From a virus: a stretch of 64,000 bases of DNA. The translations under genes and the position numbers were made by a program. The stretch spans positions 62,001 to 126,000 of the IMG/VR virus record IMGVR_UViG_3300021962_000028; one strand, 5' to 3'. Positions 1,029 through 29,675 of the stretch are shown here, piece by piece (within the stretch, counting starts at the first letter, position 1; the number at the start of each line of letters is the position of its first letter). The notes below the pieces were generated by a model, which worked only from the letters and a program-made list of their open reading frames with translations, did not search any database and was not told the origin of the DNA.

Positions 1029-2882
1029 TTATAAATATCTCTTATTTAAGAGTTTGTCTAATTCTTCAGAAATATCTCCTAAAGAATCTTGTCCTTTAGA
1101 TAAATCAATATAACTATCTTCAGTTAACATATCCTGAGATTCTAATAAAATATTAAGATTTTCTCTTTTAACTGATTCAGGAGTTATCTCAGATTCCCCT
1201 CCTGCTGGTGGGGCTTCTCCTCCTGTATCACCGCCAATTGGAGACTCTCCTCCACCTCCTAAACCTGCTGGTGGGGTAAATCCACTTTCTTCACCACCCG
1301 CAGTTTCACCTCCCGCACTTGCGGTGGTACCTGATGGACTTCCATATAATTTATCTATATTGTCGAAAATACCTGTTTTAGTTATAACTGTAGGAGTATT
1401 TTCAAGTTCTTTAGCAACCGCCTTTTCAAGTCTTTGTTGTTGTAAATCTAATCTAATATCTTCATCTGAAAAACCTAATACGTGTTTCTTAGCCCAAGAT
1501 ACTGACACAGGGGCGATACCTTCAATAGCAGTAACCGCATCTTTGTAAAGTAATATTTTTTCTTTCCACACGTCAATTTTTAACAAATCAGCTTGTGTCG
1601 ATGGATTTGATAATGTTAGAGTAAAGTTAGATAACTCGTCCTCAAATCCCAATAAGAATAAATGTATAATAGCAACTTTATTAAGTTCCGCTAACATACT
1701 TTTTTGTATTCTATTAATAGTTCGTGCAAAACGGATATCTTGTAATGATAAGTTTTTACCATCACCAACAACTTCCTCAAAACCTAAAAATGCTTTAGGT
1801 ACACGAAGTGCCGTTAATAATTTCTTTTGGATATATTCGATATCTGCAATCTCAGAAAGGTTTTGCGCTCCTGGTAATGTATCAATAGGGTTTGGTGCCG
1901 CAGGGTCACGAACAGGTACGAAGTAATCTTGGTCTACCGCCATTTGATTAAACCTCATATCAACATTACCCGTTTTATGGTCAACAACTTGGTCTCTTTT
2001 AAATTTATTTGCAACACGTTGTACATAAGCTTCAACATCCTTATCGTCCATATTACCAACAAATACCTTAAAGATTCTTCTTTCAGGTGCTCTTGATGTA
2101 CGATAGATTAACATTGCGTCTTCCGATAATAATAACTGTTTCCAAATACGTCTTGCTTTTTCTAACATAGAAGTACCATAAGGAAGTTTTCTATCATCAC
2201 CCAATAATCTAAAGTGGGCAATTTCCCAAGTATTGAATGACATATCTTTATTCTTCCAATTGAATGCAAGTGCTTTTTGCTCACCTTCGCCACTGTCTAA
2301 ATTAGATTTACCTTTCATACCTCTTTCAACCCTTTCAATCTCAATGTTAGGTAATTGCATACATCCAACAATTCCTTTCTCAGGGTCTAATTTAAGATAA
2401 ACAAAATTATCACCGTACTTACAAGTGTTTCTAGTCCACATTGCAAGGTTAGTGTTAATATCTAACACATTGTTAAATAAATCAGCCAATACTGATTTAA
2501 TACGTTTTGATTCTGAGTATATTTGTAGGATGTAACCGTTTTGGTCGGCAGTTGTAGATTCTTCGGCATAAATGTCTAACGCTGCGGAAATCTCAGGAGT
2601 ATACTCCATAGATTCGTAGTCGTAATACGACGCCAATCTTGTTGGTTCAAAATAAACTCCTTGACTGTAGAGGTTATTTTCTATTTTAGTCCACTGATTT
2701 GCAAGATAGAATGTTTGTTGGGCTTGTAATTTAGCCTTCTCATATTCTTGTGCATTTGTTGTTTTTAATAACTCTTTCTTATCGTATTTAAAAACGGGGT
2801 AATCCTGATTCATTAAAGAATTAGGACCAAAGGTCTGTGATAACCTTTGCCAAACCGTTAAATCTCTATTTTCATTACTCAT
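1029..2882 (-). CDS. Portal protein (T4 gp20-like)
   Basis: 617 residues. The order of recognisable blocks matches gp20-type portals: an N-terminal segment with YYDYESMEYTPEISAALDIYAEEST, then YGDNFVYLKLD, the stem region RAPERRIFKVFVGNM, and the distal LRVPKAFLGFEE block followed by RTINRIQKSMLAEL. The portal forms the dodecameric channel at one capsid vertex through which the terminase packages DNA. The C-terminal 100 residues are Gly/Pro-rich (about 510-570) and then acidic. It lies immediately downstream of the terminase gene, as in T4-like head clusters. Confidence 0.93.
   Translation of the reverse strand: MSNENRDLTVWQRLSQTFGPNSLMNQDYPVFKYDKKELLKTTNAQEYEKAKLQAQQTFYLANQWTKIENNLYSQGVYFEPTRLASYYDYESMEYTPEISAALDIYAEESTTADQNGYILQIYSESKRIKSVLADLFNNVLDINTNLAMWTRNTCKYGDNFVYLKLDPEKGIVGCMQLPNIEIERVERGMKGKSNLDSGEGEQKALAFNWKNKDMSFNTWEIAHFRLLGDDRKLPYGTSMLEKARRIWKQLLLSEDAMLIYRTSRAPERRIFKVFVGNMDDKDVEAYVQRVANKFKRDQVVDHKTGNVDMRFNQMAVDQDYFVPVRDPAAPNPIDTLPGAQNLSEIADIEYIQKKLLTALRVPKAFLGFEEVVGDGKNLSLQDIRFARTINRIQKSMLAELNKVAIIHLFLLGFEDELSNFTLTLSNPSTQADLLKIDVWKEKILLYKDAVTAIEGIAPVSVSWAKKHVLGFSDEDIRLDLQQQRLEKAVAKELENTPTVITKTGIFDNIDKLYGSPSGTTASAGGETAGGEESGFTPPAGLGGGGESPIGGDTGGEAPPAGGESEITPESVKRENLNILLESQDMLTEDSYIDLSKGQDSLGDISEELDKLLNKRYL
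1030..1037 (-). promoter_or_regulatory. TATTTATA motif
   Basis: Reads TATTTATA on the minus strand, 14 nt before the ATG at 1015 and overlapping the portal stop codon. One of the recurring phage motifs described in the findings. Confidence 0.45.
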
Positions 2883-2918: not shown

Positions 2919-4685
2919 TTATCTCGACCTACCGAACAACCATAAATATTTTTGATAGTCATTTTTAGTCGCCTCGTTAGAATAATTCTGATGGTTAGGC
3001 ATTCCTGCAGGAATTACAGGATTAAACGACACCTGTCTACCAATTTCCTCATTATTATTTACCGTCCAAGAACTTAACATTGCTTTAGTCTGTTCTGTTA
3101 CTTTGGTCAGCTGATTAAATGAATTCTCACCAACATATGTTGCCATAGCAATTGCCATAATCAAATCATCGTGATGACCTTTTTGGTGGTCTGGTCTTCC
3201 GTTTATATATACAAAGGTATTCATCTCATTAAAGAGTCTATTACTATAGATTTTAAATCCGTGTCTCATAGATTCTTCAAATGAAGAAATTATTTGAACC
3301 CTCTTGTTATTAAAGTTTAACCCTGGAATCTTATCTAAAGCTTTAGGGTCGTATTTCCATTTATTACCCATTTCAACTCCATCAATATACAAGTTCTTAT
3401 AATTCATCTCCTGTAATTTTCGAGCAGTTGAAACCCCCATACCTCCTGTGATATCAATAACCACAAACGCACTATACATCATCGCCCATTTATAAGCAAT
3501 CTCTGCAGCTACGTCAGGTGGGATTTTACCTATGTATTCTAATACTTGTTCTCTTTCGTCAAAATCAATAATAATCATTGAAGTAAAGTCTTCAGAATCT
3601 CCTCTTGATACGTCAACACCCATAATATATTTATGACCTTCAACAGGTTCTTTCCACATCCATAATGCACCTCCCATCATTCTATTGGTAGGTTCTTTTA
3701 ACATATTTTGATGAATATCTTGTAATTGTTTTGAATCAAATACGTTATCACCAGAACCTAAGAAGTTACACTCTAACTCCTGAGACACTTTACGTTTATC
3801 GTATTTTAATTTTTTAACCATACCCTCAAACCAACTTGATGTAGGTTTATATCCGTCGGCAAGTTTTTGTTTGATTTCTTCAAAATCTCTTAATCTAGGG
3901 TCTATGGATGAATAATCGATAGTATCAATCTCCTTATATTCATCTCGATTTAAATAAAAGTGAATTAAGTCTTCAACTTTTAGTAATTTTAAATCTTTAG
4001 TGTATCTTGGGTCTTTAAACCAATACATCTCTGAGATTTTGAATTCATTCATACCTCGTAATGCTTGGTCATATATTTCATAGTAGATTGGGTCATAACC
4101 GTTAGGTGTTGATACCACAATCACTTTACCCCCTGTTGAAAGGGATGCCATACAAGCCGCCCAAAAATCTCCATCGGCTTCAATATATGCAGCTTCGTCA
4201 AATACAAGAATTGTTGGAGTATAACCCCTTAACGCATCTCGTGATGTTGCAACCGCCTTAACTTCACATCCGTTAGTTAACTTATAGTGTCTTTGTGAAT
4301 TTTTTTCACTTGAAAACCCTACACCTGTCCAATTAGGCCATTGTTCAGTAAAACCTCTAATCTTATTTGCCATCTCAACCGCAGTATCCAATTTGTTGGC
4401 GATGATTAGAATTTTTTCAGGTTTTTTCTTAGACGCAAATACTAAACGTTTTGACGCCCAAGCTGCGGTAACTGTAGATACTCCAGCTTGTCGGTATTTT
4501 AACGCAATATTTTCATTGTAATTCTCGTAATCCTCCAATAAGGTTACTTGGTCAGGAAATAATTCCAAAGGGACATACTGAGATACAGTATTGTCATAGG
4601 TCTGTAAATAAGTTTTAAGTGCGTAAGGAGTATTCTTTACGCACTTAGTATATTCTAATATTAATTGTTCTTTAGTAAAAGCCAT
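2919..4685 (-). CDS. Terminase large subunit (T4 gp17-like)
   Basis: 588 residues. The ATPase half shows a phage-type Walker A (KYRQAGVSTV), Walker B ILVFDEAAYIE and the coupling motif VSTPNG; the nuclease half shows an RNase H-like acidic triad in GVDVSRGDSEDF, VVIDITGG and GHHDDLIMA. It pumps DNA into the prohead and cuts the concatemer at the portal. It is followed by the portal gene after 36 nt, and preceded by a gene ending 3 nt upstream. Length is typical of gp17 (about 600). Confidence 0.95.
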   Translation of the reverse strand: MAFTKEQLILEYTKCVKNTPYALKTYLQTYDNTVSQYVPLELFPDQVTLLEDYENYNENIALKYRQAGVSTVTAAWASKRLVFASKKKPEKILIIANKLDTAVEMANKIRGFTEQWPNWTGVGFSSEKNSQRHYKLTNGCEVKAVATSRDALRGYTPTILVFDEAAYIEADGDFWAACMASLSTGGKVIVVSTPNGYDPIYYEIYDQALRGMNEFKISEMYWFKDPRYTKDLKLLKVEDLIHFYLNRDEYKEIDTIDYSSIDPRLRDFEEIKQKLADGYKPTSSWFEGMVKKLKYDKRKVSQELECNFLGSGDNVFDSKQLQDIHQNMLKEPTNRMMGGALWMWKEPVEGHKYIMGVDVSRGDSEDFTSMIIIDFDEREQVLEYIGKIPPDVAAEIAYKWAMMYSAFVVIDITGGMGVSTARKLQEMNYKNLYIDGVEMGNKWKYDPKALDKIPGLNFNNKRVQIISSFEESMRHGFKIYSNRLFNEMNTFVYINGRPDHQKGHHDDLIMAIAMATYVGENSFNQLTKVTEQTKAMLSSWTVNNNEEIGRQVSFNPVIPAGMPNHQNYSNEATKNDYQKYLWLFGRSR

Positions 4686-10973: not shown

Positions 10974-12998
10974 ATGATAGAATCAATGGACAATGACAAC
11001 AGAAAAGAGAACAAACGACCTTCTGACTCATCAACACCCGCTTTAGACAATTTTAGTCGTGATTTGATTAAACTTGCCGAACAAGGTAAATTAGACCCTG
11101 TAGTAGGTAGAGAGAAAGAAATCTTACGTATTGCTCAAATACTTTCCCGTAGAAAGAAAAATAACCCAATTATCATTGGAGAACCTGGTTGTGGTAAAAC
11201 CGCAATTGTTGAAGGTTTGGCAATGAAAATCTATGAAGGGGATTGTCCAAGAAATCTAGCCGACAAAAGAATTCTTTCATTAGATATGACTTCGATTGTT
11301 GCTGGTACAAAATACCGTGGTCAATTTGAAGAAAGAATGAAAGTTCTTATTGAAGAACTTCAGGCCAACCCTGACATTATCATCTTTATTGATGAAATTC
11401 ATACAATAGTTGGTGCAGGTAATTCTTCAGGGTCGTTAGATGCTTCAAATATCTTTAAACCCGCACTCGCTCGTGGAGAAATCCAATGTATCGGAGCGAC
11501 AACATTAGACGAATATCGTAAAAACTTTGAAAAAGATGGGGCGTTAGAGCGTCGTTTTCAAAAGGTTATTGTTGATGGGGCAACTAAAGAAGAAACTTTG
11601 GTCATCCTTAAAAATCTTAAAGACAAGTATGAGGGGTTTCATAAGGTATCCTTCAGTGATGAAGTTCTTGAGACTTGTGTAACTTTGGCGGAACGTTATA
11701 TCACAGATAGAGAATTCCCTGATAAAGCAATTGATATTCTTGATGAGGTTGGGGCACGTAGTCAGGTTGATATGAAACTTCCTGAAATTATTGAAGAGTT
11801 AAAAACCAAAGCACTTGATATTAAGAACCAAAAGGTTGAGGTTGTTAAAAATCAACGTTATGAGGAGGCCGCAGAACTTAGAGATAAGGAGAGAAAGATT
11901 TTGTCAAAACTTGATGAGGAGAAGAAAAAATTCGAGCAAGATTTGACTACAAAACGTAAAGAAGTTTCTTTAGAATTAGTTTACGATGTTGTTTCTAATA
12001 TGACTAAAATCCCTGTTAGTAAATTGAATGCGGATGATACTAAGGCTTTAGTCGATTTAGATAAAACTTTAAATACCAAAGTTATTGGTCAAGAAGAGGC
12101 GGTTAAACGTATTGCAAAATCAATTAAAAGAAATCGTTTAGGTATTAAAGACCCAAATCGACCAATCGGTTCATTTATTTTCTTAGGGTCCACAGGTGTT
12201 GGTAAAACTTATTTAGCGAAACAATTAGCTAAAGAAGTGTTTGGTAGTGAAGATTCGTTAATCCGTGTGGATATGTCTGAGTACCAAGAGAAACATACCG
12301 TATCTCGTTTAATCGGAGCACCTCCAGGATATGTTGGTTATGATGAGGGAGGTCAATTAACTGAACAAGTTAAAAATAAACCTTATTCGGTAATCTTATT
12401 TGACGAGATTGAGAAGGCAAATAAAGATATTTTCTCATCTTTACTTCAAATGTTGGATGATGGACATATGACGGATGGTTTAGGTCGTAAAATTAACTTT
12501 AAGAATTGTATCATCATTATGACATCAAACTTAGGGGTTAAAAAATTACAAGACTTTGGTAATGGTGTTGGGTTCTCAAATTCTAATAACGCTTTTGTTA
12601 ACGAAGAATTAAGAAAACAAACACTACAGAAAGAATTGAAAAAATTCTTTTCACCTGAATTCTTAAACCGTATTGATGATACTATTATCTTTAATAGTTT
12701 AGGTCAAAACGACGTTGATAAAATTGTCGCTATCGAATTAGATAAGTTAAAAGTTCGTTTAGATAGTATGAAATATCAAATCACGTTTGATAAGTCAATT
12801 TCTGAAATGATTTCGAAAGTAGGTTTTGATGAAATGTACGGAGCACGTCCTCTAAAAAGAGCAATCCAAGATAAGGTTGAGGATTACATCTCGGAAGAAG
12901 TTCTTAGAAATAACATTAAAGAGGGTGTTAAATACGTTTTAACTACCGAAGATGGTGAGACTGTATCAATTCAGTCTAAAAAGAAAAAAGGGGTTTAA
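10974..12998 (+). CDS. ClpC-like AAA+ unfoldase lacking the N-terminal domain
   Basis: 674 residues with two AAA+ modules. D1: Walker A GEPGCGKT (69-76), Walker B FIDE (138-141). Middle: a UVR-type motif [18 protein letters not shown], as in ClpC. D2: Walker A GSTGVGKT, Walker B LFDEIEKA and sensor region [17 protein letters not shown] loop between the D2 motifs is in the place of the ClpP-docking IGF/VGF loop. Bacterial ClpC is about 810-850 residues; the missing part is the N-terminal Clp repeat domain. It unfolds substrates and feeds them to ClpP, which this phage also encodes at 35.4 kb. Promoter and palindromic operators lie upstream; a terminator follows. Confidence 0.92.
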
Positions 12999-13267: not shown

Positions 13268-14098
13268 TTACCAATATCTAAAGGTTGATGATTTTTGTCT
13301 TTCGTGTGTATATTTTTGATACCCTAATGACTCTATCATTTGTTTACCCATATCAACACCATTAAACGTATCTTCAACCACAACATACTCTTGGTTAGTG
13401 TGGTATCGGTAATATCCGATTGAGAAGTTAATACAGGAGAAATCAAACTTAGTCTTCAATGCGTATACATCTGTGTATGGGTGTACCATATACTGACGTT
13501 TCTCATTCATACTTTCGGTTATTACCTTATCACATTTTTCAAAGAATTCCCCTTCTTTATCAAATAATCTAGCACCATAACAAGTTTCAGTTACCATCCA
13601 ATTTTCGGGAGCGTCGAATTGAATTGCATATCCAACGTTAGTAAAGAAACTTGGGTCTGCCATTTTTGAACCGTGACAACCTGTTTCTTCAGATACAAAA
13701 AATGCGGCTTTAAGGTTTGGAAGTTCTTTTAGTAATTCAAAACAGGCAAATACCCCGCATTTATCATCACCACCAATTCCTGTTGGTAGTCCGTTATCGT
13801 TGTACGCTTTTAGTGAAAGTTTTAAATCACCGTTAGAATTAGGCAACATTTCTTCTCTAACATTAATAGTATCTAATTTGTGAACCGTATCAGTATGTGC
13901 GACGACACAAGGAAAAACAAAGTCTTCAGGAAGTTCTCCTGTTTGTTTTATAGCGTAAACATTTAAATGTTCGTCAACGTAGTGTTCAATATTATTAGAC
14001 TTTAACCAGTCAACAATAAACTGAACCATTAAATCTTCTTGATATGTGTAAGTAGGCACTGAAAGTACTTCCTTAAGTAACTGCAAATCTCTTGCCAT
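13268..14098 (-). CDS. M20/M28-type zinc metallopeptidase
   Basis: 276 residues. Metal-site blocks appear in order: VAHTDTVH (first His/Asp), GGDDKCGVFACFELL (bridging Asp), FVSEETGCHGSK (catalytic and metal Glu), IQFDAPENW (Asp). This is the order in peptidase T, M20 and M42 aminopeptidases. It is shorter than cellular relatives (about 370-410), mainly because the lid domain is small or absent. It probably trims peptides in the cytoplasm, perhaps products of the Clp system (inference). A TATCTTTG box upstream suggests early, host-polymerase expression. Confidence 0.82.
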   Translation of the reverse strand: MARDLQLLKEVLSVPTYTYQEDLMVQFIVDWLKSNNIEHYVDEHLNVYAIKQTGELPEDFVFPCVVAHTDTVHKLDTINVREEMLPNSNGDLKLSLKAYNDNGLPTGIGGDDKCGVFACFELLKELPNLKAAFFVSEETGCHGSKMADPSFFTNVGYAIQFDAPENWMVTETCYGARLFDKEGEFFEKCDKVITESMNEKRQYMVHPYTDVYALKTKFDFSCINFSIGYYRYHTNQEYVVVEDTFNGVDMGKQMIESLGYQKYTHERQKSSTFRYW

Positions 14099-14136: not shown

Positions 14137-15165
14137 TTAATCAAACAACTCTGGGTGGTATAAAAAATTATTAAATTGTTCTAAATCATAATCACCACGT
14201 TTAAAATCCATAGTACCCTTTTTCTTATATTCTAGTTCTATTTTATTGGTTTCAGGATTTATTCTTATGACTTTAAACATCATTTTATTTTCATCCTTAG
14301 GTCTACCATACCAAACATTGTATTTAAATTTTTTGGTAACGTAAGTTACTAATTTTTTGTATTCATCCAAATCTGCAAACTTATCACCATCCTCCATATC
14401 TGAGATGATGTTCTCCAACTGGTATTTTACTGACCTATTAAATGATTCGGAATCAAATTCATTAGACCCCATATATTCATACATATTACTCCAATAATCG
14501 CCATCAACTGATTTGTCGTGACCAACAGTTTTTAATAACGTTAATAAATCACTATTTTTATTACCGTACTTATCGTATAACTTAATTAATGAATCTACGG
14601 TTGTCATATATTTGTAAAAACAACCTTGGGTATTGTGAATACCGTTTTCTAAAAAAATATCACATAATTCTTTAGTAATTTCTTTCTCCATTGAGTTTTT
14701 CATCCCTGAGTCCATCTCAGATTCGTAATCACCAATAATATAATCAACACGATTATTAAACAACTCCTCAAGTAATCTACAAAATTCAACCGCTTGAGCA
14801 TCATCCTGTAAGTTTAAATTTGGGGCAATTAATCTTTTAATTTCCTCCATTAATTCTTTATTCTCATCATTAAAGTATGGAAAAACATAACCTTCTCTCC
14901 AATCTTCTTCCGCTCTATAACTGTCAAAAACTTCTAAATTACCGTAAGACGAATATAGATTATTTAAAAACCAAACATCATCATCGGATAAGTCAAATAA
15001 TTTAAAATACTGTTCGTCGTTTTCAAATTTCAAAGTAATAATACCGTTATCTCTAACATTAAATATTAATTCGTCATTTATCCCTTTACCATCAACTAAT
15101 CCTCTCTTAAACATATGCAATTGCATATATAACCAATCGGGATTTGATTCTTTTAGTATTTTCAT
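14137..15165 (-). CDS. Hypothetical protein, 342 residues
   Basis: Soluble, acidic, aromatic-rich protein beginning MKILKESNPDWLYMQLHMFKRG. The first residues read LKES, like the LxE-S ends seen in several other proteins of this window. Tyr, Asp and Asn are frequent; no catalytic motif stands out. It resembles in style the other large unassigned proteins at 45.1-46.9 and 61.0-62.2 kb. A TATTTATT motif lies 16 nt before ATG. Confidence 0.7.
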   Translation of the reverse strand: MKILKESNPDWLYMQLHMFKRGLVDGKGINDELIFNVRDNGIITLKFENDEQYFKLFDLSDDDVWFLNNLYSSYGNLEVFDSYRAEEDWREGYVFPYFNDENKELMEEIKRLIAPNLNLQDDAQAVEFCRLLEELFNNRVDYIIGDYESEMDSGMKNSMEKEITKELCDIFLENGIHNTQGCFYKYMTTVDSLIKLYDKYGNKNSDLLTLLKTVGHDKSVDGDYWSNMYEYMGSNEFDSESFNRSVKYQLENIISDMEDGDKFADLDEYKKLVTYVTKKFKYNVWYGRPKDENKMMFKVIRINPETNKIELEYKKKGTMDFKRGDYDLEQFNNFLYHPELFD

Positions 15166-15198: not shown

Positions 15199-15230
15199 TT
15201 TGGATATTTAAAAAACAAATTGTATCTTTG
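15199..15230 (+). promoter_or_regulatory. Full Bacteroidota promoter of tmRNA
   Basis: TTTG (15199-15202), a 20 bp spacer, then TATCTTTG (15223-15230), matching the -33/-7 consensus. The tmRNA 5' end follows after 19 nt. Confidence 0.75.
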
Positions 15231-15249: not shown

Positions 15250-15635
15250 GGGGATGAATGGAATCGATTGGCATTGTTGCGTATCGGTGGCACGTCGGAA
15301 CTGAATTAATTCCGTAAAAACTGATTCAAAACTGTAAACGGCAACGTTTTAGACAAAATGGCTCTATTAGGTCTTGTTAAACAAGATGAGCTTGTTTCTG
15401 TAGCGTAAGCACAAAAACATTCGGGTCGGCGGACTTATAACCTAGGAACAGAAGTCTTTATAGGTGTGGTTTCTATCTTAAAAGGAACAAGTGGAGGATT
15501 AGTTCTCAGTAAACCGAACCACTATAAAATAAGGGAATTGTGAATTTCGGAACATTAGAAAATGTTGACCTAAACGTGTAGTCACTTATATGTGAAGTGA
15601 ACAAGACGAGAGTTCGAATCTCTCCATCTCCACCA
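15250..15635 (+). ncRNA. ssrA: tmRNA (transfer-messenger RNA)
   Basis: The 5' end GGGGATGAATGG and 3' end CATCTCCACCA pair to form the tRNA-like acceptor stem, with a G3-U70 wobble (alanine identity), A73 and an encoded CCA. The T-arm GAGAG-TTCGAAT-CTCTC is perfect. An internal reading frame ends at a TAA at 15406-15408; if resumed at GGC (15340) the tag is 22 residues, starting GNVLDKM and ending DELVSVA, rather than the short GENNYALAA-type tag of the host phylum. The downstream half shows pseudoknot-like GC-rich segments. It rescues stalled ribosomes and tags the product for proteases. A terminator follows. Confidence 0.92.
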
Positions 15636-15640
15636 TTAGA

Positions 15641-15674
15641 AATAAGGGATTTAATTATCCCTTATTTTTTTTTA
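15641..15674 (+). terminator. Rho-independent terminator of tmRNA
   Basis: AATAAGGGAT/ATCCCTTATT hairpin with a long T-run directly after the tmRNA 3' end. Confidence 0.8.
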
Positions 15675-23072: not shown

Positions 23073-23105
23073 TGAAGAATATTTTAATTGGCAAAGAAAA
23101 ATATG

Positions 23106-23191
23106 CGGAAGATGAGGGGCTCGAACCCTCGCGACTTTAACATCCTACCTGTTTAGCAAACAGGCCCCTTCACCAACTTGGGTAATCTTCC
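23106..23191 (-). tRNA. tRNA-Ser(GCT)
   Basis: Acceptor GGAAGAT/ATCTTCC with G73, anticodon loop TTGCTAA on a CCTGT/ACAGG stem, a long variable arm, and T-loop TTCGAGC. Reads AGC and AGU codons. Confidence 0.93.
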
Positions 23192-23196
23192 AATAG

Positions 23197-23268
23197 TAGT
23201 CCCTGAGGGATTCGAACCCCCACTAAAACATCCGTAGTGTTTCGTGCTCTCCGTTACACCAAGAGACT
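23197..23268 (-). tRNA. tRNA-Arg(ACG)
   Basis: Acceptor AGTCTCT/AGGGACT with A73; anticodon loop CTACGGA on AAACA/TGTTT; T-loop TTCGAAT. A34 would need deamination to inosine by a TadA-type enzyme. Confidence 0.9.
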
Positions 23269-23274
23269 GTACAT

Positions 23275-23478
23275 CTAATTAAAGGTATATTTCATATCTT
23301 CATTAAAGATAAAAACATTACCTTCTTGAGTTATACCTAACTTACTCAAAACAATATTAAATTCTTCTTGAGTGAAAAATTTAGATTGTACCAACCTGTA
23401 ATACGAGTTTAATAAATCAACTATCTCAGGTTCTGAAATTTGATGGGTGTTTAATAATTCATTTAATTTGTCTGTCAT
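23275..23478 (-). CDS. Small hypothetical protein between tRNAs
   Basis: 67 residues (MTDKLNELLNTHQISEPEIVDLLNSYYRLV...), helical and charged. The longer frame to 23628 begins with residues that cover structured RNA sequence, so the start at 23478 is preferred. No family recognised. Confidence 0.55.
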   Translation of the reverse strand: MTDKLNELLNTHQISEPEIVDLLNSYYRLVQSKFFTQEEFNIVLSKLGITQEGNVFIFNEDMKYTFN

Positions 23479-23918
23479 ATATTTTAGGATTTTAAGTGTC
23501 AGAATAAAAAGGTCCTGAATCATCCCTCCGCCTTCTGAGGAGAACCTTTTAGTTTTTAGTATAGTTTGGCGTTCATAGTATCCCACACCGATATGACTAA
23601 GATTCGTTAGCCCATAGTAACCATCCACGGTGGGTCTGTACTCTCACCCATATTTCAGGGTTACCCTCAGAACATCTTCACCCTACCCCCAAAGTTACGT
23701 GGCGAGTCTCACTCGGAAGACAGAGTGTGTATTGTAAGATTGTTCAGTGTTCTTACAACTTGTGGATTGTATTACGACTAATTAAAGCCCCTCACCCCCT
23801 TAATCCATAATGGGGAATCCTTGTTTGTTTGTGTAGCCTCCCCCATAGCCTTGAAGCCTTCAAGTCAGGTTCACACTCCATAACGGTAGGATATTTCCGT
23901 TAATCGTGGGGTCTTTTG
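23479..23918 (-). ncRNA. Structured non-coding stretch in tRNA array
   Basis: About 440 nt, GC-richer than surrounding genes, with no convincing gene. Minus-strand reading shows strong hairpins, including TTGTAAGA/TCTTACAA and GGGTAACCC-type pairs. It may be a discrete ncRNA or decayed tRNA genes. Confidence 0.4.
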
Positions 23919-24003
23919 CGGAGGAAGTAGGATTCGAACCTACGGTACCTTGCGGTACGCTAGTTTTCAAGACTAGTGCAATCGACCACTCTGCCATTCC
24001 TCC
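23919..24003 (-). tRNA. tRNA-Ser(TGA)
   Basis: Acceptor GGAGGAA/TTCCTCC with G73; loop CTTGAAA on CTAGT/ACTAG; variable arm TACCGCAAGGTA; T-loop TTCGAAT. Reads UCN codons. Confidence 0.94.
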
Positions 24004-24102
24004 AATTTAGGTCGTCACGAACCCATCTGTGACTTATTACTAGATACTTGTAGTTTACTTACTATAGTTTAATCCGTTACTACAAGGGAACCCAACCTAT
24101 CG

Positions 24103-24176
24103 GGTGACTAACGGGAATCGAACCCGTGACAACTTGAACCACAATCAAGTGCTCTGCCTACTGAGCTATAGCCACC
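24103..24176 (-). tRNA. tRNA-His(GTG)
   Basis: Acceptor GTGGCTA/TAGTCAC with G-1 and C73, the histidine identity pair; loop TTGTGGT on CTTGA/TCAAG; T-loop TTCGATT. Confidence 0.93.
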
Positions 24177-24390
24177 ATATTAATCGTTCAATCATTTTTG
24201 ACTGTCCCCAATACCGAATTTCAGCGGCAACTCACTTTTGTGAGGGGTTAGAACTTGTGTGTTAACTTACTCCTGTTACTGGTACACTAACCAACCGACT
24301 TAGACTCAAGTAATCGGCTCAGGTCCCTATGGTTGTAACACCACTTCTCATCATTCGGGAGCAAACTAGTCGTGTACTACTCGACTCGTG
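24177..24390 (-). ncRNA. Structured non-coding spacer
   Basis: About 214 nt without a gene. Minus strand shows a multi-branched fold: CCCC/GGGG closing CTCAC-AAAA-GTGAG and CCG/CGG hairpins near 24205-24250, and GGTTAG/CTAACC just upstream. Confidence 0.4.
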
Positions 24391-24492
24391 TAGTCAGGAC
24401 AGGATTCGAACCTATTCCGTCTTTGCCATAAAGAGTCATCCGTACTGTTACTCAACCTTGGGGAGGTGACACCAACCAATGGTCTCCTGACT
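24391..24492 (-). tRNA. Aberrant tRNA-like gene (102 nt)
   Basis: A perfect 7-bp acceptor AGTCAGG/CCTGACT with A73 and a normal T-arm (ATAGG-TTCGAAT-CCTGT) enclose about 70 nt instead of about 42. A D-arm ACC/GGT and possible loop TCCCCAA can be drawn, followed by two extra hairpins (GAGT/ACTC and CTTT-ATGGC-AAAG). I cannot assign an anticodon safely; it may be a tRNA with a giant variable arm, a decoy or a pseudogene. Confidence 0.5.
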
Positions 24493-24497
24493 ATTTG

Positions 24498-24631
24498 TAA
24501 TCAAGGTCGGACTCGAACCGAATACCGTTCAAGACGGATTAGACAACCTTACGACTCCATAGACCCCACAAGTGTCTGGGACTATTGGTCTTGGGGACTC
24601 GGGCACCGTCCCTCATTACGCCCACTTGATT
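24498..24631 (-). tRNA. Aberrant tRNA-like gene (134 nt)
   Basis: Acceptor AATCAAG/CTTGATT with A73, D-stem-like GGGC/GCCC and a canonical T-loop TTCGAGT flank about 60 nt more than a tRNA should hold. A hairpin with loop TCTTGAA (AATCCG/CGG-T-ATT) lies close to the T-arm. Anticodon not assignable with confidence. Confidence 0.45.
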
Positions 24632-24636
24632 ATTTA

Positions 24637-24682
24637 CCCCACTTCACCAGGTTAACGGACTGGCTGCCATATGGGAGTGGGG
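24637..24682 (-). other. Hairpin with 7-bp closing stem
   Basis: CCCCACT/AGTGGGG ends enclose an inner CCAG/CTGG stem and a CCATATGG palindrome. It lies between the 134-nt tRNA-like gene and tRNA-Phe. Possible processing signal or degenerate tRNA-like element. Confidence 0.45.
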
Positions 24683-24706
24683 GTTTCCCGTTAATTCGGG
24701 ACTCCG

Positions 24707-24779
24707 TGGAACGGGGCGGAATCGAACCGCCGACACCTTGCTCTTCAGGCAAGTGCTCTACCAACTGAGCTACCGTTCC
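24707..24779 (-). tRNA. tRNA-Phe(GAA)
   Basis: Acceptor GGAACGG/CCGTTCC with A73; loop CTGAAGA on CTTGC/GCAAG; T-loop TTCGATT. Confidence 0.95.
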
Positions 24780-25237
24780 AAGTATGATAATGATGGAGTA
24801 CCCGTCTCGCTCCAATCTTAACTGCTTTCCTGAGTTTTAGGAGGCCTCGGCAGAAAGGGTGATGAACTATTTTTCCATTCGGAATTGTCGACATTCCATT
24901 GAATGGTAAGAACCATTATCAATATTTTAAAAATTGGTGAGACCTTAAGATTTACTCATTCGTGGGTCACCCCATCCGTTCTACCTAGACCTCGCCTTTA
25001 ACATCCGTTCTACCCAAACCATCGTTTTTACCTGTTAACCTTTCGGAAAACTTTGAGTACCTCCTCAATGAGTTAATCTGATAGGGGCTCCATCTTGCTC
25101 GTCATTTCTGACTCCCTATGGGGTTCTGCTGATATAGGTCTATCTGCTATCTTACCAATCTAATTATTCAAAGAACTCTTTTGACAGGGGAGTAGGTCAC
25201 CAACTTACCAACTACCTACCCCCCTTCAACCACATTA
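24780..25237 (-). ncRNA. Long structured leader of tRNA transcript
   Basis: About 458 nt between a full promoter at 25238-25269 and tRNA-Phe, with no gene. It contains a 13-nt direct repeat (GGTAGAACGGATG on the minus strand at 24973-24985 and 25002-25014) and several hairpins. Probably a stable leader RNA or processed ncRNA. Confidence 0.45.
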
Positions 25238-25269
25238 CAAATGTACGGCAAATTATTTAATTCTCCAAA
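25238..25269 (-). promoter_or_regulatory. Full Bacteroidota promoter for the tRNA array
   Basis: On the minus strand TTTG (25269-25266), 20 bp, then TACATTTG (25245-25238). It drives leftward transcription toward tRNA-Phe and beyond. Confidence 0.7.
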
Positions 25270-25278
25270 CATTTTTTG

Positions 25279-25350
25279 TAGTTCCTGTAGGATTCGAACC
25301 TACGACAACTTGTATGTAAAACAAGGGCTCTTCCACTGAGCTAAGGAACT
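25279..25350 (-). tRNA. tRNA-Val(TAC)
   Basis: Acceptor AGTTCCT/AGGAACT with A73; loop TTTACAT on CTTGT/ACAAG; T-loop TTCGAAT. Confidence 0.95.
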
Positions 25351-25356
25351 GTTAAG

Positions 25357-25428
25357 TACCGATGGGAAGAATTGAACTTCCGACACCTTCCGTATGAAAG
25401 AAGTGCTCTACCACTGAGCTACATCGGT
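25357..25428 (-). tRNA. tRNA-Met(CAT), elongator or Ile2
   Basis: Acceptor ACCGATG/CATCGGT with A73, fully paired at 1-72, so not an initiator; loop TTCATAC on CTTCT/GGAAG; T-loop TTCAATT. It could decode AUG, or AUA if C34 becomes lysidine. Confidence 0.9.
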
Positions 25429-25482
25429 ATTTTGGTGGACGTAGACTCATCACCTACTCTTGGGTTTCCACCGAACCCCTTG

Positions 25483-25553
25483 TTGTCCCTGAAGGATTCG
25501 AACCTCCACCGCGTGGACCAAAACCACGTGTCCTGCCATTAGACCAAAGGACA
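25483..25553 (-). tRNA. tRNA-Gln(TTG)
   Basis: Acceptor TGTCCTT/AGGGACA with A73; loop TTTTGGT on CGTGG/CCACG; T-loop TTCGAAT. Confidence 0.93.
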
Positions 25554-25571
25554 GTTTGACTGTTTTTCCGA

Positions 25572-25579
25572 TATTTATA
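25572..25579 (+). promoter_or_regulatory. TATTTATA motif
   Basis: GATATTTATAG 30 nt ahead of the holin ATG at 25610, on the strand opposite to the surrounding tRNAs. Confidence 0.45.
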
Positions 25580-25609
25580 GACTGGCATAAACCTTTAATC
25601 AAATTTATA

Positions 25610-25774
25610 ATGACTAAAGAACAAATCCAAGGTATCGTTAGACACGCACTTACTTTTGTGGGTGGTATCCTGATTATGAAAGGTCTTGCAACTGATTCAA
25701 CAGTTCAAGAACTTATCGGAGCTGCAGTTACATTAGTTGGTGGTGTATGGTCAATTATTGCTAAACAGAAATAA
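25610..25774 (+). CDS. Pam3-gp28-type putative holin
   Basis: 54 residues: MTKEQIQGIVRHALTFVGGILIMKGLATDST, then GAAVTLVGGVWSIIAKQK. The RHALT..GG....KG...S....G....GG.WS...K pattern is that of the Pam3-gp28 family of small phage holin-like membrane proteins. It would form membrane lesions for endolysin release. The frame could extend to 25556 but the ATG at 25610 matches the family start. It stands alone, rightward, inside the leftward tRNA array, with its own motif and terminator. Confidence 0.8.
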   Translation: MTKEQIQGIVRHALTFVGGILIMKGLATDSTVQELIGAAVTLVGGVWSIIAKQK

Positions 25775-25792
25775 TTGATAACGACCTAATCG

Positions 25793-25821
25793 AAAAAGAG
25801 GGGATTTATATCCCCTTTTTT
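25793..25821 (+). terminator. Rho-independent terminator
   Basis: AAAGAGGGGAT/ATCCCCTTTT hairpin with a T-run after the holin gene. Confidence 0.8.
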
Positions 25822-25827
25822 ATTTTG

Positions 25828-25908
25828 TGGGAGTGGAGGGATTCGAACCCCCAATGTCGTAAGACCACTGATTTACAGTCAGCTAAGCAACCGTTGCTCA
25901 ACACTCCC
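25828..25908 (-). tRNA. tRNA-Tyr(GTA)
   Basis: Acceptor GGGAGTG/CACTCCC with A73; loop CTGTAAA on a CTGA/TCAG stem; long variable arm; T-loop TTCGAAT. Confidence 0.94.
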
Positions 25909-26056
25909 AATTTAGGAAAACAGAAGATGGTTCAGTGGACATCTGTTTTTACGATTAGCGTTACTCGGGTGAATACCTGCAAACTCCGATTATATTAGTC
26001 AGTATTCACTCTCGAACTATCAATACAATCATTCCCTAATCAACCTAATTTTTTTG
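25909..26056. other. Spacer with hairpins
   Basis: 148 nt, no gene. An imperfect hairpin AAAACAG(A)AGATG/CATCTGTTTT near 25917-25950 could act as a terminator, and GTGAATA/TATTCAC pairs lie near 25970-26010. Confidence 0.4.
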
Positions 26057-26128
26057 CGGCCAGGGAGAATTACGATATCTCGACCTATCGCTTAACAGGC
26101 GATTGCTCTTCCTCTGAGCTACCTGGCC
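26057..26128 (-). tRNA. tRNA-Asn(GTT) with unusual T-arm
   Basis: Acceptor GGCCAGG/CCTGGCC with G73; loop CTGTTAA on ATCGC/GCGAT. The T-arm reads GAGA-TATCGTAAT-TCTC rather than the usual TTCGANT loop, so the T-loop is atypical. Confidence 0.88.
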
Positions 26129-26133
26129 ATTTG

Positions 26134-26206
26134 CACGCCTACCAAGATTCGAACTTGGAACAACAGTTTTGGAGACTGTGATGATAAACCGTTTCACCAT
26201 AGACGT
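26134..26206 (-). tRNA. tRNA-Trp(CCA)
   Basis: Acceptor ACGTCTA/TAGGCGT with G73; loop CTCCAAA on ACAGT/ACTGT; T-loop TTCGAAT. Confidence 0.94.
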
Positions 26207-26211
26207 ATTTG

Positions 26212-26283
26212 AGGTCGGTACAGGAATCGAACCTGTGTAGATAGTTTTGCAGACTATCGCCTAAACCACTCGGCCAACCGACC
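26212..26283 (-). tRNA. tRNA-Cys(GCA)
   Basis: Acceptor GGTCGGT/ACCGACC with U73 (cysteine identity base); loop CTGCAAA on ATAGT/ACTAT; T-loop TTCGATT. Confidence 0.94.
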
Positions 26284-26289
26284 CTATTG

Positions 26290-26364
26290 TGTCCCCGACA
26301 GGACTCGAACCTGTGACTCCCTCATTAAAAGTGAGGTGCTCTAAACCAACTGAGCTACGAAGAC
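26290..26364 (-). tRNA. tRNA-Lys(TTT)
   Basis: Acceptor GTCTTCG/CGGGGAC with A73; loop CTTTTAA on CCTCA/TGAGG; T-loop TTCGAGT. Confidence 0.94.
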
Positions 26365-26370
26365 ATTAAG

Positions 26371-26444
26371 TTGTCACAGATGGGCTCGAACCATCGACCT
26401 TTCGCGTATCAGGCGAACGCTCTAACCAACTGAGCTATGTGACA
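26371..26444 (-). tRNA. tRNA-Ile(GAT)
   Basis: Acceptor TGTCACA/TGTGACA with A73; loop CTGATAC on TTCGC/GCGAA; T-loop TTCGAGC. Confidence 0.95.
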
Positions 26445-26450
26445 ATGTTG

Positions 26451-26522
26451 TCGGGGTGGCGGGAGTCGAACCCGCCGCCTCGTGTTCCCAAAACACGCGT
26501 CTCTCCTCGAGACTACACCCCG
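26451..26522 (-). tRNA. tRNA-Pro(TGG)
   Basis: Acceptor CGGGGTG/CACCCCG with A73; loop TTTGGGA on CGTGT/ACACG; T-loop TTCGACT. Confidence 0.94.
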
Positions 26523-26571
26523 TTTACTTTTCTTACCAATATGTCAAAGAACACTTTATTACAAAAAAAAA

Positions 26572-26594
26572 TCCTGAACTTTTTGAGTTCAGGA
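26572..26594 (-). terminator. Rho-independent terminator
   Basis: TCCTGAACT/AGTTCAGGA hairpin followed by a T-run on the minus strand. It separates the upstream small-gene unit from the tRNA run. Confidence 0.75.
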
Positions 26595-26631
26595 CTTTGA
26601 TATATTTGTTGTATGTTTTTCTAAAATTACA

Positions 26632-26742
26632 TTACACTAAATCATCATTAACTGAACTTGTATGCGAAATACGCGGATACGAACAATTACTAAATTGTTG
26701 TTTCCAAATCACGACGTTCATATGTTTATTAGTGTTTTTCAT
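26632..26742 (-). CDS. Possible 36-residue peptide
   Basis: MKNTNKHMNVVIWKQQFSNC... ending NDDLV. It lies between a TAACTTTG box (26788-26795) and a terminator, so something small is transcribed here, but the peptide has no recognisable feature and could be chance. Confidence 0.3.
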   Translation of the reverse strand: MKNTNKHMNVVIWKQQFSNCSYPRISHTSSVNDDLV

Positions 26743-26787
26743 TTTTTCTATTTGTTGTGGTATCTCTACCTGTTTCTATAATTACTA

Positions 26788-26795
26788 CAAAGTTA
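26788..26795 (-). promoter_or_regulatory. Bacteroidota-type -7 box (TAACTTTG)
   Basis: TAACTTTG on the minus strand, 45 nt ahead of the 36-residue frame. Confidence 0.5.
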
Positions 26796-26829
26796 CGAAA
26801 AATTACGTAATTGTCAAATATTTTTTATT

Positions 26830-27414
26830 TTATTTTAAAAAAGATAATACTTTTTCTTTAATACCAGATTGTTTTAACCCTTCATTACCTCTTGGAGTCA
26901 ATACAAAATTTTCTAAACCCCAATCGTGAACCCATTTAATCGAATACGACATCCCTTCTTTACCCATATCAAGGTCGTCGATAGCTACCCACTCAGTAAC
27001 CTCAGGATGATTCTTTAAGTATTGGTTGATTTCCAATGTACGAGTCTGTTCTAAATCCCAATCTCTATTCCAAGGGAACGAACCATCGTAGTTATTACAT
27101 TCACTTAAGTTAGGTGTAAAGGCGATTGGTTTTTTATTAATTCCTTGGGACTCGTAATACTCTCCCATTTCCTCAACGGTACACCATCTTTTCCAATCTG
27201 ATGATACCACAATTTCCGCACCAGTTTTTTCCAAGATTTCGTTAAGAACTTTAATAGCTTTCTTATTGAAATTATCAAAACGGTATTCTAATGGCATTTC
27301 CTTTGGGGTCATTGATAACTTTTGACCGTCCCATTTATTTCGTTTCTTATAACGACCACCCCACTCTGTGGATAAACAGATTACTCCGTCGTGGTCTAAA
27401 AATATAACTTTCAT
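26830..27414 (-). CDS. HAD-fold phosphatase-like protein
   Basis: 194 residues. MKVIFLDHDGVI gives the HAD motif I (DxDGV), AEIVVSSDWKRW the motif II Ser, and WVAIDDLDMG the motif IV acidic pair. The set resembles HAD domains attached to RNA-repair (Swiss Army Knife) proteins and to phage 5'/3' phosphatases, so RNA end dephosphorylation is possible. Start at 27414 forms an ATGA overlap with the stop of the upstream gene; the longer frame has no better start. Confidence 0.75.
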   Translation of the reverse strand: MKVIFLDHDGVICLSTEWGGRYKKRNKWDGQKLSMTPKEMPLEYRFDNFNKKAIKVLNEILEKTGAEIVVSSDWKRWCTVEEMGEYYESQGINKKPIAFTPNLSECNNYDGSFPWNRDWDLEQTRTLEINQYLKNHPEVTEWVAIDDLDMGKEGMSYSIKWVHDWGLENFVLTPRGNEGLKQSGIKEKVLSFLK

Positions 27415-27686
27415 TTTTTTTCTATTTTTTTTAAAACCATAGACGACCATTTTTGTCTTGGCCCGTTTTTCATTAACACCTCGTTGATAAAAGTCTCAGC
27501 ATCAGGAAGATTGTTGAATTTTAGAACGGTGTTGTAAGACCCACTCTCATAACATTCTTTATACTTTACGTACGACCACCATTTAAACCATAAAAATTTT
27601 TTAGATTCTTTTATACAGAAATGAACTTGGTTACTAATACCATTCTCATTAAAATAATCTTCTCTAATAATCAGGTAACTTTTCAT
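27411..27686 (-). CDS. Small hypothetical protein
   Basis: 91 residues, aromatic and charged (MKSYLIIREDYFNENGISNQVHFCIKESKKFLWFKWWSYVKYKECYE...). No family recognised. TATATTTG lies exactly 4 nt before ATG; it forms a two-gene unit with the HAD gene. Confidence 0.65.
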   Translation of the reverse strand: MKSYLIIREDYFNENGISNQVHFCIKESKKFLWFKWWSYVKYKECYESGSYNTVLKFNNLPDAETFINEVLMKNGPRQKWSSMVLKKIEKK

Positions 27687-27690
27687 AGTA

Positions 27691-27698
27691 CAAATATA
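27691..27698 (-). promoter_or_regulatory. TATATTTG box 4 nt before ATG
   Basis: TATATTTG-TACT-ATG at 27686. Confidence 0.65.
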
Positions 27699-27701
27699 CG
27701 A

Positions 27702-27869
27702 CTATTTTTTAATAATATAACCATATTGGTTTAAAATTAGAATAATCCCTAAAATGGATAAACCAAGACAAATTATTTTAACAATAACGTCAATGAATGT
27801 TTTCTTACTCCATATAACCCCAAAGATTAGGAATATAATTGTCGCAATAATATTGAATATAAGTTGCAT
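27702..27869 (-). CDS. Small two-span membrane protein
   Basis: 55 residues, MQLIFNIIATIIFLIFGVIW then VIVKIICLGLSILGIILIL, ending YGYIIKK. The frame upstream of 27869 covers a tRNA and is rejected. No family recognised. Confidence 0.55.
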   Translation of the reverse strand: MQLIFNIIATIIFLIFGVIWSKKTFIDVIVKIICLGLSILGIILILNQYGYIIKK

Positions 27870-27890
27870 ATTTGTTTTTTTAGATATTTG

Positions 27891-27964
27891 TGGTCCATAC
27901 AGGACTTGAACCTGTGACCTTCTCATTATGAGTGAGCTGCTCTAACCAACTGAGCTAAAGGACC
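27891..27964 (-). tRNA. tRNA-Met(CAT), second elongator or Ile2
   Basis: Acceptor GGTCCTT/ATGGACC (one T-T mismatch) with A73; G1-C72 paired, so not an initiator; loop CTCATAA on GCTCA/TGAGA; T-loop TTCAAGT. One of the two CAT elongators may be the lysidine-type Ile tRNA for AUA. Confidence 0.9.
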
Positions 27965-27970
27965 TATTTG

Positions 27971-28043
27971 AGCCTCCTGTAGGATTCGAACCTACGACCC
28001 CTTCATTACAAGTGAAGTGCTCTACCAGCTGAGCTAAGGAGGC
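27971..28043 (-). tRNA. tRNA-Thr(TGT)
   Basis: Acceptor GCCTCCT/AGGAGGC with T73; loop CTTGTAA on CTTCA/TGAAG; T-loop TTCGAAT. Confidence 0.95.
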
Positions 28044-28328
28044 CTATTTAATTTTCTTATATACGTAAGTTATTGTGTCCCCTATTTTGTAGATATCGTC
28101 CCTATCTGTTGAGAATGCTTGTCCGCACTCTGTTTTGTAGTAATATTTTGGAGTTAATTCATTAATTGCCACAGGTTGTTTAACCCAAGAACTATCTATA
28201 ACGCATTTAACAACTTTGTCCCCTGGTTCAATTTTATTTCTATTTTCACACCCTGTTAATACAAAGGCAATAATACCAATTAATAAAAACCAAATAATGG
28301 CAAATACGTACGGTGCGAACTTTTTCAT
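28044..28328 (-). CDS. Small lipoprotein
   Basis: 94 residues with a hydrophobic signal (FAPYVFAIIWFLLIGIIAFVLTGC) ending in a lipobox LTGC, then a polar domain with two further cysteines (VKCVIDSSW, TECGQAF). Unknown family. Its stop directly abuts tRNA-Thr, so both are probably in one transcript. Confidence 0.7.
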   Translation of the reverse strand: MKKFAPYVFAIIWFLLIGIIAFVLTGCENRNKIEPGDKVVKCVIDSSWVKQPVAINELTPKYYYKTECGQAFSTDRDDIYKIGDTITYVYKKIK

Positions 28329-28347
28329 ATATTATTTTTTTTGTAAT

Positions 28348-28602
28348 TTAAACAACCAAATACTTTATAGAATTTTTTTTAATCCATTCTGAATCATATT
28401 TAAACTCCTTCCAATTGTCGAAGTCCTTAAGTTCTTCTAATACCTCATTAGGTACTAATGTAAACCCTTCAGGTGCAATACCATCAAATTTATGATATGC
28501 AGAATGTTCTATTTTTTCTTTCATCATTTGACAGAATAACTCACTTTTGATAAACTCATTATGTTCTTCTTCAAATACAATATCTTGATTAATATCAACC
28601 AT
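28348..28602 (-). CDS. Small hypothetical protein
   Basis: 84 residues, acidic (MVDINQDIVFEEEHNEFIKSELFCQMMKEKIE...), with FDGIAPEGFTLVPNEVLEELKDF. No recognised family; lies between tRNA-Arg and the lipoprotein gene. Confidence 0.6.
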   Translation of the reverse strand: MVDINQDIVFEEEHNEFIKSELFCQMMKEKIEHSAYHKFDGIAPEGFTLVPNEVLEELKDFDNWKEFKYDSEWIKKNSIKYLVV

Positions 28603-28617
28603 AATTTCTTAATTTAG

Positions 28618-28689
28618 TAGCCCCACCAAGAATCGAACTTGGAACTAATCTTTAGAAGAGATTCGTTATATCCATTTAACTATGGAGCC
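28618..28689 (-). tRNA. tRNA-Arg(TCT)
   Basis: Acceptor GGCTCCA/TGGGGCT (G1-U72) with A73; loop CTTCTAA on AATCT/AGATT; T-loop TTCGATT. Reads AGA and AGG, common codons in this AT-rich genome. Confidence 0.93.
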
Positions 28690-28694
28690 ATTTG

Positions 28695-28871
28695 TTAGAC
28701 TTTTTTAACTAAGTAAACGTGACCTGAGTCTGAGTTTTTAGAAAAAATATCTCTCATTTTAATTGCTTCTTCCTCGGTTTCAAATTCCCATATTTCAGAG
28801 TGACCATCTAATATGATAACAGGAACTTTAACTCCGTTAAGACTTTCCATTAATTTTACAATTACCCACAT
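28695..28871 (-). CDS. Small hypothetical protein
   Basis: 58 residues: MWVIVKLMESLNGVKVPVII, then a LDGHSEIWEFETEEEAIKMRDIFSKN segment, ending HVYLVKKV. The beta-alpha-beta layout with an EEEA helix resembles small phage proteins of unknown role. A TAAATTTG box lies 18 nt upstream, supporting a real gene. Confidence 0.6.
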   Translation of the reverse strand: MWVIVKLMESLNGVKVPVIILDGHSEIWEFETEEEAIKMRDIFSKNSDSGHVYLVKKV

Positions 28872-28889
28872 AATATTTTATTTACACTA

Positions 28890-28897
28890 CAAATTTA
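28890..28897 (-). promoter_or_regulatory. Bacteroidota-type -7 box (TAAATTTG)
   Basis: TAAATTTG on the minus strand, 18 nt ahead of the ATG at 28871. Confidence 0.5.
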
Positions 28898-28914
28898 GTA
28901 AAAATTATCCGAAT

Positions 28915-29076
28915 TTACAAATTAAAACAACTTTTAAGTGAAAATAATATAAAAAAAATTATTACTAACAGAATTGAGTAACCGAAAACTTTATTATTTC
29001 TTTCAACCTTTTCTTTTGAACGACCTTGCCATTCATCAGAATCCCATACTTCAGAATCCCATTCTTCATTTTCCAT
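28915..29076 (-). CDS. Small single-span membrane protein
   Basis: 53 residues: an acidic N-terminus with a repeated (S)E-WDS-(D)E pattern (MENEEWDSEVWDSDEW), a basic linker, and one C-terminal membrane span GYSILLVIIFFILFSL. Tail-anchored layout. No family recognised. Confidence 0.55.
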   Translation of the reverse strand: MENEEWDSEVWDSDEWQGRSKEKVERNNKVFGYSILLVIIFFILFSLKSCFNL

Positions 29077-29106
29077 ACTTAATAAGTATTACTAAATTTA
29101 TTTGTG

Positions 29107-29178
29107 CGGTCTATGAGGGAATCGAACCCTCCTCACTACCGTGACAGGGTAGCATCCTAGCCGATGAACGAATAGACC
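29107..29178 (-). tRNA. tRNA-Asp(GTC), copy 1
   Basis: Acceptor GGTCTAT/ATAGACC with G73; loop CTGTCAC on CTACC/GGTAG; T-loop TTCGATT. Confidence 0.94.
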
Positions 29179-29186
29179 AATTTTTG

Positions 29187-29259
29187 CGGTCCCGACGGGA
29201 TTCGAACCCGTACCTCGCACCGTGACAGGGTGGAATTGTAACCATTCAACCACGGGACC
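29187..29259 (-). tRNA. tRNA-Asp(GTC), copy 2
   Basis: Acceptor GGTCCCG/CGGGACC with G73; loop CTGTCAC on a CACC/GGTG stem; T-loop TTCGAAT. Same anticodon as copy 1 but clearly different stems, so not a recent duplication. Confidence 0.93.
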
Positions 29260-29265
29260 TTTTTG

Positions 29266-29338
29266 AGCGGAAGACGGGACTCGAACCCGCAACCCCCGAC
29301 TTGGAAGGACGGTGCTCTACCAATTGAGCTACTTCCGC
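29266..29338 (-). tRNA. tRNA-Gly(TCC)
   Basis: Acceptor GCGGAAG/CTTCCGC with T73; loop CTTCCAA on CCGTC/GTCGG; T-loop TTCGAGT. Confidence 0.95.
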
Positions 29339-29344
29339 ATTTTT

Positions 29345-29412: not shown

Positions 29413-29418
29413 CTTTTG

Positions 29419-29492: not shown

Positions 29493-29503
29493 ATATATTA
29501 TTT

Positions 29504-29593: not shown

Positions 29594-29597
29594 TTTG

Positions 29598-29669: not shown

Positions 29670-29675
29670 ATGTTG

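Follow-up and report, generated by a model that had tools for sequence, protein, structure and literature searches.

Why do phages carry tmRNA genes, and where do the proteins tagged by these RNAs go? Phage tmRNAs are already known (PMC4131195, PMC7162821, PMC8776804), and so far they have been listed without explanation. They occur in the mycobacteriophages Bxz1, Cali, Catera, Wildcat and others and in Bacillus phage G (PMC4131195), and a survey of huge phages describes tmRNA and SmpB (PMC7162821). Here we analysed a 64,000-nucleotide stretch (the window), corresponding to bases 62,001-126,000 of a 158,622-bp IMG/VR viral record. A sequence-only reading of this DNA had proposed that it encodes a tmRNA with an unusual tag, whose tail could send tagged proteins to a phage protease instead of host ClpXP.

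A full-length tmRNA gene in a viral genome

The covariance search with Rfam RF00023 recovered a tmRNA gene at 15250-15635 on the plus strand, from the mature 5' G to the encoded CCA, at 101.8 bits and E 1.3e-38 (cut-off 47 bits). The match spans the full length of the model (1-374 of 374) and has exactly the coordinates given by the sequence-only reading; the alignment is good in the 5' part and of low confidence from the tag through the later of the four pseudoknots expected in a tmRNA. Rfam detected no second full tmRNA across the 158,622-bp record. The viral nature of the record is supported by genes for the portal protein (1029-2882, minus strand; phrog_213, E 6.1e-68) and for the terminase large subunit (2919-4685, minus strand; phrog_2, E 2.2e-40), the latter serving as our clade marker.

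Direct reading of the gene recovers an alanine-type acceptor arm, GGGGAUG/CAUCUCC, with the G3 (15252)-U70 (15629) pair and an encoded CCA, and a T-arm, GAGAG-UUCGAAU-CUCUC. The gene is preceded by a Bacteroidota-type promoter (15199-15230, plus strand) composed of TTTG at 15199-15202 and TATCTTTG at 15223-15230, the latter box ending 20 nt 5' of the mature tmRNA end. A TAnnTTTG box is found upstream in 66 of 85 distinct relatives, compared with 9% of random stretches. An intrinsic terminator with a 13-pair stem and a T run follows at 15638-15669 (plus strand). Each of these elements had been named from the sequence beforehand, and each is there. The tRNA-like ends, the G3-U70 pair and CCA are shared with standard bacterial SsrA of the Bacteroidota type, as is a glycine resume codon with pyrimidine-A at positions -5/-4.

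A predicted 22-residue tag read from GGC

The tag frame occupies 15340-15408 on the plus strand: 22 codons (15340-15405) starting with GGC at 15340 and encoding GNVLDKMALLGLVKQDELVSVA, followed by the TAA stop at 15406-15408. In E. coli, the main determinant of frame choice is A86, located four bases 5' of the resume codon (PMC2481249). An A at this position is invariant among the relatives of the window tmRNA (56 of 56 distinct upstream sequences), and the base before it is T or C, the same as in Bacteroidota hosts. ARAGORN reports the identical frame in six relatives (GNVLDKMETLGLVRESEVTVA, GETFAKLQAVGLLRTEEVTVA and four others). The frame agrees with the one originally proposed, and no other frame of the window tmRNA encodes a host-like tag. 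A switch of the ribosome into this frame at GGC is thus well supported. A one-off tag or a frame error is ruled out by the invariant A, the ARAGORN predictions in relatives, and the tag family and codon test described below.

It is very hard to credit that the whole feature is a chance resemblance or a misreading, with no working tmRNA or a wrong frame. Such a view could point to ARAGORN, which on the window does not report the copy at 15250-15635, and to free folding, which is mildly better than for shuffled sequences (minimum free energy z -1.6); a z value of this size is ordinary for RNAs with pseudoknots. It is contradicted by the Rfam E value, the frame determinant kept in every relative, the conserved peptide and the agreement of ARAGORN on the frame in six relatives.

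A conserved tag family under purifying selection

A probe with the exact tag core retrieved ten viral contigs, and a degenerate probe retrieved more. To avoid circularity, we used a tag-blind probe comprising the tRNA-like 3' domain only, and scored the tags with the pattern G-x9-GL-x6..9-A. Among the 110 viral tmRNAs recovered in this way, 94 carry a tag of this GL family, 21-22 residues long and representing 42 distinct peptides; all scans together yield 128 tmRNAs with 50 distinct peptides. The family consensus is G-x9-GL-x-VxVA. The same probe applied to one genome per bacterial species recovered no GL-type tag among the 118 cellular tmRNAs listed; the cellular tags among the matches listed, where readable, are mostly 8-16 residues long, and the Bacteroidota ones end in ALAA or AMAA. 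The tag is long and atypical, as the sequence-only reading had it, and is moreover a member of a conserved family; the accompanying statement that Bacteroidota tags are usually short and end in ALAA holds for the Bacteroidota tmRNAs examined, with AMAA as a second ending. The standard Bacteroidota SsrA tags have 9-10 residues, and the phage tags have 21-22, with a GL core and a VxVA tail. The possibility of a host gene in a misassembled contig was rejected, given the absence of GL tags from the cellular tmRNAs listed and the adjacent terminase and portal genes.

The GL tags share an amphipathic core, K-L/M-x3-GL-x-R, and a VxVA tail, with the C-terminal Ala and Val(-4) both conserved. The majority of the tags end in VA and some in VAA or YAA, while none of the 50 distinct tags ends in LAA or MAA. 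In a codon test on 46 distinct 63-nt tags, 61% of single-base codon differences were silent, compared with 26% expected; codon position 2 varies least, and the variation is concentrated at third positions. This pattern of codon variation indicates purifying selection on the peptide, acting on the whole 21 residues and not on the tail alone. RNA structure is an unlikely sole source of the tag conservation, as third codon positions hold most of the variation.

ARAGORN misses most of the GL-tag tmRNAs found by Rfam or by pattern (L009, L057, L070 and other loci). Surveys based on ARAGORN therefore under-count phage tmRNAs; the survey of huge phages used this program (PMC7162821). A scan with a GACTAARC... 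pattern returned chiefly prophage-type contigs carrying ordinary host tmRNAs.

A ClpC-like unfoldase without an N-domain is encoded next to the tmRNA

The gene for an Hsp100 unfoldase of 674 aa lies at 10974-12998, 2.3 kb upstream of the tmRNA and on the same (plus) strand (phrog_4871, E 1.1e-239; PF07724). Among solved structures, it is closest to the ClpC proteins from S. aureus and B. subtilis (PDB 6em8, 3j3s). Like these proteins, the phage unfoldase has two AAA+ domains with intact Walker motifs and pore loops, an M-domain stretch, and a ClpP-docking VGF loop (GNGVGFSNS) aligned at the position of the ClpC loop, which satisfies the [LIV]GF pattern of the ClpC subfamily. Unlike them, it lacks the N-domain, since its alignment begins only at ClpC residue 150, and its gene adjoins a tmRNA gene. 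The ClpC N-domain binds adaptors such as MecA. Across the clade, the unfoldase open frames measure ∼666-734 aa.

Two genes on the opposite strand separate the unfoldase from the tmRNA. The first (13268-14098, minus strand; phrog_4191, E 9.5e-34) encodes a metallopeptidase of the M42/M20 type, similar to TET aminopeptidases and PepT. Its Pfam match falls below the cut-off; the two-metal site expected of M42/M20 enzymes (HxD, GGDDKxG, EE, D, H) is complete, represented by HTDTVH, GGDDKCG, SEETG, FDAP and H, and these motifs recur in 90% or more of the 38 members aligned. A fold model of medium confidence matches TET aminopeptidases and PepT. The second gene (14137-15165, minus strand), divergent from the tmRNA and present in 36 of 37 loci, encodes a conserved protein with a confident predicted fold, for which the structural search returned no match.

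A ClpP peptidase of 224 aa is encoded 20 kb from the tmRNA (35442-36116, plus strand; PF00574, E 2.7e-58). Its nearest PDB structures are true ClpPs, and the catalytic Ser, His and Asp are present in the segments AASMGS, MLHQ and RDLWLS, as aligned to solved ClpPs. The ClpP gene comes after two tRNA-Leu genes and is adjoined by genes for a UDP-glucose/GDP-mannose dehydrogenase and an HNH endonuclease (33448-35000). The window contains 27 tRNA genes (23105-30112 and 35043-35423), including four tRNA-Met and two neighbouring tRNA-Asp with an identical anticodon. No SmpB gene was found in the 158,622-bp record, and SmpB occurs in 3 of 47 tmRNA-bearing records. With no SmpB in its record, the phage tmRNA presumably shares that of the host.

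GL tags and ClpC occur together within one clade

All 42 GL-tag records, some of them fragments of 13-28 kb, contain the ClpC gene. The same search found it in none of five records with other tags. It was likewise found in none of 12 phages with tmRNA tags ending in LAA, MAA or IAA, several of whose records are fragments. In the reverse search starting from ClpC, 45 loci had 6 kb or more of DNA downstream, and in 44 of them a GL-tag tmRNA lies on the strand of ClpC. True ClpP was detected in 13 of the 42 GL-tag records, the record of the window among them, and not in the other 29, many of which are fragments.

These counts are not independent, since the GL-tag phages form a single uncultured clade, and Fisher values computed from them do not stand as independent tests. 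Their terminases are 63-93% identical, and the block running from terminase to tmRNA is conserved in its entirety. The linkage of tag and ClpC may therefore reflect descent instead of function. A distance correlation between tag and ClpC gave no signal beyond phylogeny (partial r 0.06), and their co-evolution was dismissed on this measure. Searches with two tags (tblastn) and two tmRNAs (blastn) recovered no named phage relatives. The nearest cultured terminase, 27% identical, belongs to Flavobacterium phage immuto, in which neither ClpC nor ClpP was found. Two huge phages carry a ClpC that is 58-60% identical, and no tmRNA was found in them.

Other lineages give thin but real support for the pairing of a long tag with phage Clp genes. 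Two further lineages have Clp genes of their own together with a long tag of the non-LAA type: a second long-tag family, represented by G053 with ClpC, ClpP and a terminase, and the huge phage LR756508, which has a ClpC without the N-domain and a tmRNA (L401 1501-1947). The tag of LR756508 is likely the 36-residue GVNNADYESAGFTAEDFAQMDGESLYHGSERKPAAV, ending in PAAV; ARAGORN reads this tag differently, and a search for its relatives returned unrelated coding sequence only. The second long-tag family (L103, L122, L154, L474) has tags of 25-26 residues, such as GDILNVEENFFATASRSFAGEVAVA. All four of its records contain a true ClpP, and the 197-kb member of the family carries a terminase and a full-length ClpC.

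A putative private degron

The suggestion that the different tail routes tagged proteins to a phage protease has become more plausible, since the phage encodes an adjacent ClpC-type unfoldase and a true ClpP, and since the unfoldase accompanies a non-LAA tag. The sequence establishes the RNA, its reading frame, the tag family and the genes around it; recognition of the tag by the phage ClpC is our inference. We see roughly even chances that the phage tmRNA substitutes a private degron, read by a phage ClpC(-ClpP) protease, for the degradation tag of the host. Judging by the anatomy of the RNA, host AlaRS would charge it via G3-U70, and host SmpB would bring it to stalled ribosomes, as the lack of SmpB in the record implies. 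The ribosome would resume at GGC, appending Ala and GNVLDKMALLGLVKQDELVSVA. For ClpXP, the terminal Ala-Ala is the main determinant of recognition, and altering either Ala raises KM (PMC7652416). The GL tag, without this preferred end, would be taken directly by the phage ClpC, which has no adaptor-binding domain, and the tagged protein would be handed to a ClpP, either the phage's or the host's. Breakdown of the peptides may be completed by the M42/PepT-like exopeptidase encoded nearby. In this way, stalled ribosomes would be rescued and amino acids recovered under phage control during infection.

An extended form of this proposal is more tentative: a complete phage line from the stalled ribosome to amino acids, comprising a private-degron tmRNA, an adaptor-free ClpC reading only that degron, ClpP and the M42/PepT-like exopeptidase. 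If it is true, tagged products, among them perhaps host proteins made from cleaved mRNAs, would not pass through host ClpXP at all, and an orthogonal tag-protease pair would have evolved in nature.

The explanation that competes most closely with a private degron, though we hold it to be rather unlikely, is ordinary rescue with a drifted degron that is still recognised by ClpXP or some other protease of the host, while ClpC, the peptidase and ClpP have different roles, for instance in virion assembly or host takeover. The tag does end in Ala after small hydrophobic residues, some members end in VAA or YAA, and a VA end may still be accepted by ClpXP; the gene block is that of a single inherited clade, and a role in virion assembly has been proposed for phage ClpA/ClpX (PMC7824862). 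However, drift does not agree with purifying selection over all 21 residues, tail included, or with the other phage tmRNAs, which retain LAA-type tails in records where the unfoldase was not found.

Another reading is that the tag is not a degron at all, serving instead for binding or localisation, or that its core is bound by a phage protein; unfinished proteins would then be sequestered or made more stable. We regard this as improbable. Both the length and the conserved amphipathic core of the tag go beyond the needs of a ClpX-type degron, and the conserved gene at 14137-15165 with no fold match adjoins the tmRNA; but the conserved C-terminal Ala and Val(-4) are what is expected of a C-degron, and an unfoldase and peptidases are encoded nearby. 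Still less probable is that the main effect of the phage tmRNA is to displace host tmRNA from SmpB and stalled ribosomes, shutting off host tagging with the tag being secondary. The rarity of SmpB (absent here, in 3 of 47 records overall) implies that host SmpB is shared, and phage DS6A has a tRNA-like fragment that inhibits host tmRNA (PMC4131195), but a full reading frame under selection would be needless for such competition.

Relation to known phage systems

Phage tmRNAs and phage Clp components are both known. Like Bxz1, Cali, Catera, Wildcat and phage G, the present phage combines a large genome with a tmRNA, and it has many tRNAs; the phages and hosts are unrelated. The huge phages surveyed earlier are likewise large metagenomic phages with tmRNA, and in the accessible part of that survey we found no discussion of tags or phage unfoldases (PMC7162821). 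Jumbo phages encode ClpP, ClpS, ClpA and ClpX; in the consulted sections of this work, which shares with ours the phage-encoded Clp parts, a link to a phage tmRNA or tag was not found (PMC7824862). A 2025 tmRNA database covered RefSeq viruses (PMC11915505). In the accessible portions of the openly licensed literature, we found no description of a conserved long tag family or of a tie between phage tmRNA and an unfoldase.

The conserved long tags of a widespread uncultured clade, encoded beside an unfoldase without the adaptor domain, turn the question of why phages carry tmRNA into one that can be tested with four clonable parts. If orthogonal, the tag-protease pair would lend itself directly to targeted protein degradation in Bacteroidota. 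As the standard finder overlooks most such genes, phage annotation under-counts tmRNAs.

Unusual tmRNAs and neighbouring RNAs

Several further RNA features were observed during the searches. GOLLD RNA is present in two huge phages of 635 and 642 kb (L398 17535-17940 and L399 14055-14461), where it precedes a ClpC-like unfoldase gene by a few kb; no tmRNA above the cut-off was found in these genomes. At L055 6866-7092 (minus strand), a group I intron matching RF00028 at 86.5 bits abuts the T-loop of a phage tmRNA. It probably sits inside the tmRNA, since three more contigs (L143, L149, L152) have the T-arm broken at the same point. An abiF RNA (RF03085) lies beside a phage tmRNA at L129 9346-9382. 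Permuted tmRNAs occur in crAss-like phages (L529 2957-3326 and L530 2987-3176), and ARAGORN reads the tag of the L529 copy as GNINVVDYTGLQEAA.
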